From assembly GCA_016931055.1 (NCBI GenBank), contig JAFGFL010000066.1:1-52091 (forward strand): DNA of 52,091 nt, in the 5' to 3' direction. The notes below the pieces were generated by a model, which saw only the letters and a program-made list of their open reading frames with translations, was not told the origin of the DNA and ran no database searches. Positions within the stretch are counted from its first letter, which is position 1, and each line of letters starts with the position of its first letter. This DNA comes from Candidatus Omnitrophota bacterium (GTDB taxonomy: Bacteria; Omnitrophota; Gorgyraeia; Zapsychrales; Zapsychraceae). The position numbers were made by a program, and so were the translations under genes. Positions 11,807-12,411 of the stretch are shown piece after piece.

Positions 11807-12079
11807 TTACTTATAACCGCAGTTCCCATCGCCTGCCCAAAACATCTGCAAGACATCACGGATAGGGACACATTTAAAAGGTTTTCCGCTTATTGTTTTG
11901 TGCATTCCGAAACGGTTCTCGTAAATATCGCAAAAGAATTTCCCTTTATGTACCTCCATAAGGTGTTCACAGGGGTCATTATCATTGATCCCGCAACACG
12001 AGCCGCAGCAATGGCATAGCACTTCCCACTCATTGAGTTGTTTTGCCTGTAACTGTTCGTATCTTTCCGTATAGGTCAT
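11807..12079 (-). CDS. Small Cys-cluster protein (YkgJ-like pattern)
   Basis: CHCCGSCCG..CEHL....CDIYENR....C....C; first ORF downstream of the riboswitch-terminator. Confidence 0.7.
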   Translation of the reverse strand: MTYTERYEQLQAKQLNEWEVLCHCCGSCCGINDNDPCEHLMEVHKGKFFCDIYENRFGMHKTISGKPFKCVPIRDVLQMFWAGDGNCGYK

Positions 12080-12149
12080 TTTTATTTTGTACTAATACCT
12101 TGATATTTAATGACTTATGCCAGTTTTAGCAGAAAAGACCCATTTCTTC

Positions 12150-12190
12150 AAAAAAAAACTCTTCCTCAAGGAACCTTCCCTAAAGAAGAG
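12150..12190 (-). terminator. Intrinsic terminator directly after the riboswitch
   Basis: Minus strand CTCTTCTTTAGGGAAGGTTCCTTGAGGAAGAG followed by T9; about 13-bp stem including G-U pairs. Confidence 0.88.
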
Positions 12191-12198
12191 AAAAAATA

Positions 12199-12375
12199 AG
12201 CCGATAAAGGAGGTTATCTCCCTCATCGCGCTTCGGCAACTCAGCCACCGTATCGCCATCAACCGTTCTTATCGTCTTTGATGCCCAGCTTAACGCTTAG
12301 GGCCTTTTAGGTATCAGACAATTTAGGTCTGTAGTTTTGCGCCCCCAGGTTTCCCTGGGTTTACCTTTATCGGCT
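12199..12375 (-). ncRNA. GEMM-I (cyclic-di-GMP-type) riboswitch
   Basis: Perfect 12-bp closing stem AGCCGATAAAGG/CCTTTATCGGCT; GGTAAACC-CAGG-GAAA-CCTG-GGGGCGCAAA; receptor-like CCTAAA...TACGG; conserved GGCTGAGTTGCCGAAG 3' segment. Confidence 0.88.
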
Positions 12376-12382
12376 TACTGTA

Positions 12383-12411
12383 AGAATAACACACTTCTTA
12401 TCAATTTTCAA
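12383..12411 (-). promoter_or_regulatory. Sigma-70-like promoter for the riboswitch transcript
   Basis: TTGAAA - 17 nt - TATTCT, with the expected start site about 7 nt downstream at the riboswitch 5' end. Confidence 0.7.

Follow-up and report, generated by a model that had tools for sequence, protein, structure and literature searches.

The window analyzed here, a 52,091-nt stretch of an Omnitrophota genome, carries on its minus strand a c-di-GMP-I RNA of a putative stand-alone type, 177 nt from the first to the last nucleotide of its closing stem P1 (12375-12199; delimited with RF01051 and model R1), together with a promoter, two successive terminators and, beyond them, a gene for a small Cys-cluster protein. 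A cmscan search matched RF01051 (GEMM-I) to minus-strand positions 12375-12232 at 65.3 bits (gathering cut-off 35; E 1.3e-10), no other Rfam model passed its threshold within the window, and R1 scores 98.3 bits over 12375-12199. The GEMM-I aptamer claimed in an earlier note on this DNA is a genuine c-di-GMP-I aptamer.

In Vibrio Vc2, the ligand is contacted by G20, A47 and C92 (PMC4744006). The equivalents in the window RNA are the G at 12365, the ligand-stacking adenine at 12338 and, for C92, a position within the CC at 12236-12235, and all of these are invariant in 33/33 diverse orthologs; position 20 was reached by counting from A47, and the alignment to Vc2 numbering is our own. The Geobacter cGAMP riboswitch has an A at position 20, corresponding to contact A14 in 4YAZ (PMC7288161). 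We ruled out the cGAMP type (GEMM-Ib) since it needs that A and the window has the G at 12365; the specificity G that had been aligned by eye thus holds up, and the specificity residues support a c-di-GMP type rather than a cGAMP type. Also ruled out was c-di-GMP-I-GGC (RF03167), a model of the same clan, which scores 58.4 bits against a cut-off of 59 and whose consensus carries G at position 47 (GCGAA) where the window RNA has A47 (GCAAA). The source genome encodes 13 GGDEF and 2 EAL domains, so c-di-GMP is likely made.

Structure and transcription unit

With RF01051 the RNA shares the core, the GAAA tetraloop arm, the receptor arm and the three ligand-contact equivalents; it differs in its 10-bp P1 of near-fixed sequence, in which P4 is inserted ahead of the 3' strand and a U-tract directly follows that strand, in a long structured insert in P3 and in having no conserved target gene. 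The P1 5' strand (AGCCGAUAAAG, 12375-12365), the last G of which is the G20 equivalent, pairs with the 3' strand (CUUUAUCGGCU, 12209-12199) in the predicted folds. Between them lie the P2 arm (12364-12339), in which a GAAA tetraloop hairpin (12359-12344) stands on a two-pair base and the pairs covary; the P3 arm (12336-12238), which combines a receptor-like CCUAAA...UACGG with the structured insert and is likewise defined by covariation; the invariant CC, placed by the ortholog alignment; and P4 (12224-12210), a variable hairpin that separates the aptamer core from the P1 3' strand and that in a few relatives is missing or very short. Folding of 12384-12150 (z = -6.3 against shuffles) returned the closing stem that the earlier note had described, here as 15 bp, and a separate hairpin for terminator 2; family-wide, P1 is a 10-bp stem (AGCCGAUAAA/UUUAUCGGCU). 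The P2 arm carries large extra hairpins, with P1 and the core fixed, at a number of other loci (L219, L221, L223, L224, L236 and L237; also L172, L177, L179, L181, L185 and L290).

Covariation was assessed in an alignment of 20 close orthologs (A2) and in one of 33 diverse orthologs from which the P3 insert had been removed (A3). In A3, 99.1% of cells pair (91.0% in shuffles), 76 cells are double-changed (17 shuffled) and the covariation score is 0.299 (0.128), a signal that vanishes when the partners are slid; in A2 the P3 insert adds further covarying helices (UUGUC/GGCGA, ACC/GGU and GCCC/GGGC). The P1 5' strand is near-invariant in both alignments by selection, the sets having been chosen on that strand. 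Wider matches show compensatory changes in P1 (GGCCGAU/AUCGGCC, GACCGAU/AUCGGUC and GCCGAUAAGG/CCUUAUCGGC) and also a wholly different P1 (UCUCGAAAAAGG/CCUUUUUCGAGG). P1 is present in the minimum free energy fold of 64/66 orthologs. Its 3' strand has alternative local partners, either GCCGA at the 3' end of the aptamer or 12228-12218, and the isolated 3' segment forms a hairpin that takes at least 6 nt of this strand in 53/66 orthologs; the P1-closed fold is better overall than the local 3' hairpin by about 10 kcal/mol.

The promoter, recognized by motif and conservation, consists of a -35 element TTGAAA (12411-12406), a 17-nt spacer and a -10 element TATTCT (12388-12383) with an extended TG. 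With 9/12 consensus matches it is weak taken alone; across 67 orthologous loci, the promoter score reaches at least 11 in 94% (63/67) as against 1.1% of control positions, which bears out the TTGAAA-17-TATTCT promoter proposed before. The -10 element ends 6-8 nt ahead of P1 in 59/67 loci, so that transcription is expected to start at about the first P1 nucleotide (around 12375 in the window).

The strong hairpin with T9 that the earlier note had placed 8 nt past the closing stem is there, but it is the second of two terminators and not the only one. Terminator 1 is formed by the closing-stem strand, or by an 11-bp hairpin at 12228-12202, followed by UUAUUUUUU, with its U-tract (UAUUUUUU, 12198-12191) directly after P1. 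Terminator 2 (12190-12150), identified by hairpin search and conservation, is a 14-bp hairpin (12190-12159) with T9, and its arms lack complementarity to the window aptamer (z = +0.7). A U-rich tract stands straight after P1 in 57/65 loci, and column information, about 2 bits over most of P1, drops to about 0.05 bit within some 12 nt beyond it, conservation ending at the U-tract. A second hairpin terminator lies within 150 nt after P1 in 47/65 loci (5% of shuffles) and was undetected in the other 18/65. The second terminators of different lineages have unrelated sequences; in the genus of the window (three congeners) the hairpin is retained although both arms change in sequence. Several loci of family f7 (L200-L208) are without a clear U-tract after P1 and have TATAAT-like elements instead, after which comes a GC-rich terminator such as GGGGCCC...GGGCCCC.

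Distribution and gene neighborhood

The comparison covers about a hundred related genomes, and membership in the family was decided by an exact 5' 17-mer (AGCCGATAAAGGYAAAC) together with local R1 scores. R1 in whole-genome mode was dropped: strict filters and long P3 inserts made it lose P1, so that it failed to separate the stand-alone-type RNA from ordinary GEMM-I RNAs. The exact 17-mer occurs in 65/386 class genomes, a census that undercounts diverged family members, and in single copy in each except G131, whose second copy is an ordinary GEMM-I RNA; the reversed 17-mer, used as a control, had one match in the same 386 genomes. It is also found in sampled relatives outside the 386-genome draw (G001, G003, G010, G015, G026, G031, G033 and G038), with a one-base variant in G014, G017 and G025, and it is absent from all 49 genomes of another Omnitrophota class. 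A scan of a genome collection gave many 17-mer matches outside Omnitrophota, of which R1 fits only four, in Clostridia; these four were rejected as members, being ordinary GEMM-I RNAs without the P1 3' strand, and the other matches are due to chance. Judged by sequence, the window RNA represents a distinct ortholog family, with one copy per genome in one Omnitrophota class. Near the ortholog locus of G003 there are group II intron matches (L069:467-602, minus strand).

Ordinary GEMM-I RNAs are plentiful in these genomes: the source genome has nine GEMM-I matches, eight of them over the cut-off, and matches were found in all 55 neighborhood genomes searched, at 2-14 per genome. The ordinary RNAs precede pilin-like, secreted (signal-peptide) and response-regulator genes, and in some (L002, L003, L004, L024 and L037) the terminator arms show complementarity to the aptamer; anti-terminator complementarity in ordinary as against P1-closed RNAs showed a trend only (p = 0.09). 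Among those of this order (L001-L006 and L010-L038), several have terminators beginning CCTATTC or CCTATCC, with a 5' arm complementary to the P3 strand, and may share an anti-terminator design. Some GEMM-I matches come in pairs 100-900 nt apart on one strand (G004:C119, G028:C86, G039:C5, G052:C39 and G032:C143), possibly as tandem c-di-GMP riboswitches.

The neighbors of the stand-alone-type RNA are not conserved. In a context census of fetched loci made with a home-made hexamer gene caller, the first downstream gene belongs to 27 families over the 62 loci at which a next gene could be called; some weak calls (L078D and L204D, for example) resemble antisense ORFs of the Cys gene and were set aside by hand. 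Reading the products from sequence, we take them to include a 100-aa zinc-ribbon-like protein, an RsmE-like methyltransferase, DAHP synthase, a GH1 glycosidase, the Cys protein, a CobO-like enzyme, PEP carboxykinase and a dihydrolipoamide dehydrogenase-like protein. In no fewer than three loci (L076, L200 and L238) the next gene lies on the other strand, and same-strand next genes were rejected as evidence for cis control, the background in these loci being 96-98% same-strand. On the other side, TrpF lies directly upstream of the RNA in 19 loci, so that the position after the trp genes, correctly noted earlier but called unexpected, is old synteny. Further downstream in the window a 2006-aa protein (11611-5591, minus strand) combines a phosphoglucomutase-like core with SSPV-type linkers; the genome contains three further copies of its N-terminal domain, and relatives of this giant protein recur beside the RNA in several families.

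The first gene past terminator 2 in the window encodes a 90-aa YcgN/YkgJ-like protein with a CxxCGxCCG cluster (12079-11807, minus strand), 120 nt downstream of the RNA and on the same strand. Homologues occur in 115/286 phylum genomes with eight invariant Cys. The window protein has no Pfam match; PF03692 is matched by 4/18 homologues, only at E of 1.4 or above, whereas an NCBIfam YcgN model is matched weakly by 18/18 (best 3.9e-5, far below the cut-offs), and a PDB profile search returned nothing useful. The YkgJ-type cluster proposed earlier thus stands as a distant resemblance to the YkgJ/YcgN CxxCxxCC proteins (PF03692), carried by the invariant Cys and the weak YcgN matches, and not as scored membership in either database. 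One congener homologue (G002:C243:1248-1541) is split into two matches in different reading frames, through either a frameshift or an assembly error.

The suggestion that homologues of the Cys protein might also follow GEMM aptamers found little in its favor, as an R1 search placed the RNA within the flanks of 6/100 further Cys-homologue loci, all of the same RNA family, and one of these six aptamers is divergent and on the opposite strand; where the Cys gene lies elsewhere among these loci, no aptamer is nearby. Adjacency of the RNA and the Cys gene recurs in distant families (the window genus, f5, f7 and f41) and is therefore old, and from the sequences compared synteny appears to fit it better than regulation. 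The idea of a messenger-gated Cys protein has little support, given that the RNA is kept without the protein and in front of 27 next-gene families and that a second, independent terminator follows it; the protein is probably a neighbor and not a dedicated target.

Weighing the readings of the RNA

We consider it somewhat probable (about 0.6) that the locus encodes a self-contained non-coding RNA of about 185-225 nt whose body is a c-di-GMP-I aptamer, which has its own transcription unit and serves as a buffering or trans-acting receptor. What was found is what a merRNA-like RNA would show, namely a dedicated promoter and terminator and no downstream ORF that is conserved, and the conserved downstream gene or gene class to be expected of a cis riboswitch was not found over the 62 loci. 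The extended -10 promoter would drive the RNA from the first P1 nucleotide, P1 would be closed by the strand adjoining the U-tract of terminator 1, and the independent terminator 2 would serve as backup. We infer that the RNA accumulates, that it captures c-di-GMP inside the cell and that it most likely serves as a c-di-GMP receptor, buffering or acting in trans, the role suggested for the merRNA of Bdellovibrio, with ligand-dependent folding altering the stability or exposure of the RNA itself and not the next gene. The aptamer's own GCCGA offers the P1 3' strand a second partner, so the folding models allow c-di-GMP to bring about refolding at terminator 1; such refolding would act through the RNA itself or through read-through of terminator 1, with terminator 2 still behind. 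Several points may count against a stand-alone RNA: adjacency to the YkgJ-like gene in distant families may leave a cis role there, the giant-protein family recurs nearby, 18/65 loci are without a detected second terminator, and P1 adjoins or overlaps G20 and is in competition with the aptamer's canonical short P1, so that the P1-closed form may be unable to bind ligand. Dual terminators, moreover, occur in leader RNAs too.

These same folds are the starting point of the most serious rival, an ordinary cis riboswitch, which we regard as unlikely, if still deserving of real weight. Here c-di-GMP would set whether UCGGC pairs with the 5' GCCGA (P1) or with the GCCGA at the aptamer 3' end (a local terminator 1) and would thereby control read-through into the YkgJ-like gene and beyond, in a design like that of the pilM ON switch, in which terminator and aptamer are mutually exclusive. 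The strand that terminator 1 shares with the aptamer in 53/66 folds and the same-strand Cys gene 120 nt downstream in the window speak for it; yet either fold ends in a CGGC stem beside the U-tract, and behind it stands an independent terminator 2 whose hairpin is kept under sequence change in the genus and, in the window, is not complementary to the aptamer, while downstream genes are not conserved and Cys-gene homologues elsewhere lack the aptamer. The promoter and terminator evidence for a transcription unit would apply equally to a stand-alone RNA that regulates distant mRNAs by base pairing, c-di-GMP choosing the exposed strand, and the near-invariant strands GCCGAUAAAGG and UUUAUCGGC do have mutually exclusive partners; that near-invariance is also explicable by the double pairing constraint together with the aptamer consensus, P1 undergoes compensatory changes in the wider matches, and we hold this version to be improbable. 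Least credible of all, and in our judgment very improbable, is a decayed or dormant riboswitch without a remaining role, as has been argued for some conserved aptamers (PMC11218506): Bc1 binds c-di-GMP even though its second terminator masks the response (PMC11218506), but a single copy has been retained in many families, its helices covary and its promoter is intact, all of which argues otherwise here. Our preferred reading is a self-contained receptor RNA.

Known systems and significance

The merRNA of the predatory bacterium Bdellovibrio bacteriovorus is a 445-nt c-di-GMP-I RNA with no conserved downstream ORF, massively expressed in attack phase and proposed to store c-di-GMP; its authors found no conservation outside Bdellovibrio (PMC3627812). 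By description, the window RNA is similar in that a c-di-GMP-I aptamer sits in a non-coding RNA with no downstream ORF conserved; it differs in being conserved across many families of one class and in being known from sequence alone. In Bc1 of the Bacillus cereus group, c-di-GMP opens terminator 1 and an intact terminator 2 masks the effect on the downstream genes (PMC11218506); the arrangement of a c-di-GMP-I aptamer and then two terminators is the same, but Bc1 is a leader RNA within one species group, whereas the gene next to the window RNA varies between genera and families. The pilM (cGAMP) riboswitch of Geobacter likewise has aptamer and terminator folds that share strands, but it belongs to the cGAMP type: its position 20 is A (PMC7288161), that of the window RNA G. 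In the literature covered, which leaves subscription papers aside, we found no paper on an Omnitrophota riboswitch.

A predatory or parasitic way of life has been proposed for most Omnitrophota (PMC10066038). Our analysis tips slightly past an even chance toward a class-wide, vertically inherited, single-copy stand-alone c-di-GMP-binding RNA in this second proposed-predator lineage, and the parallel with merRNA between predatory lineages is suggestive.

A riboswitch aptamer is usually taken to be the leader of the gene that follows, and the present case is a warning against annotating the gene next to such an aptamer as c-di-GMP controlled. If the stand-alone reading is true, an RNA can be the receptor of a second messenger without switching its neighbor, the aptamer itself being the gene product. 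Stand-alone c-di-GMP RNA has so far been known from one Bdellovibrio RNA, and what would be new is a conserved family, by which the merRNA storage idea, put forward in 2013 for one organism, would become testable by comparison, with a hint of shared c-di-GMP handling in unrelated predatory lineages.
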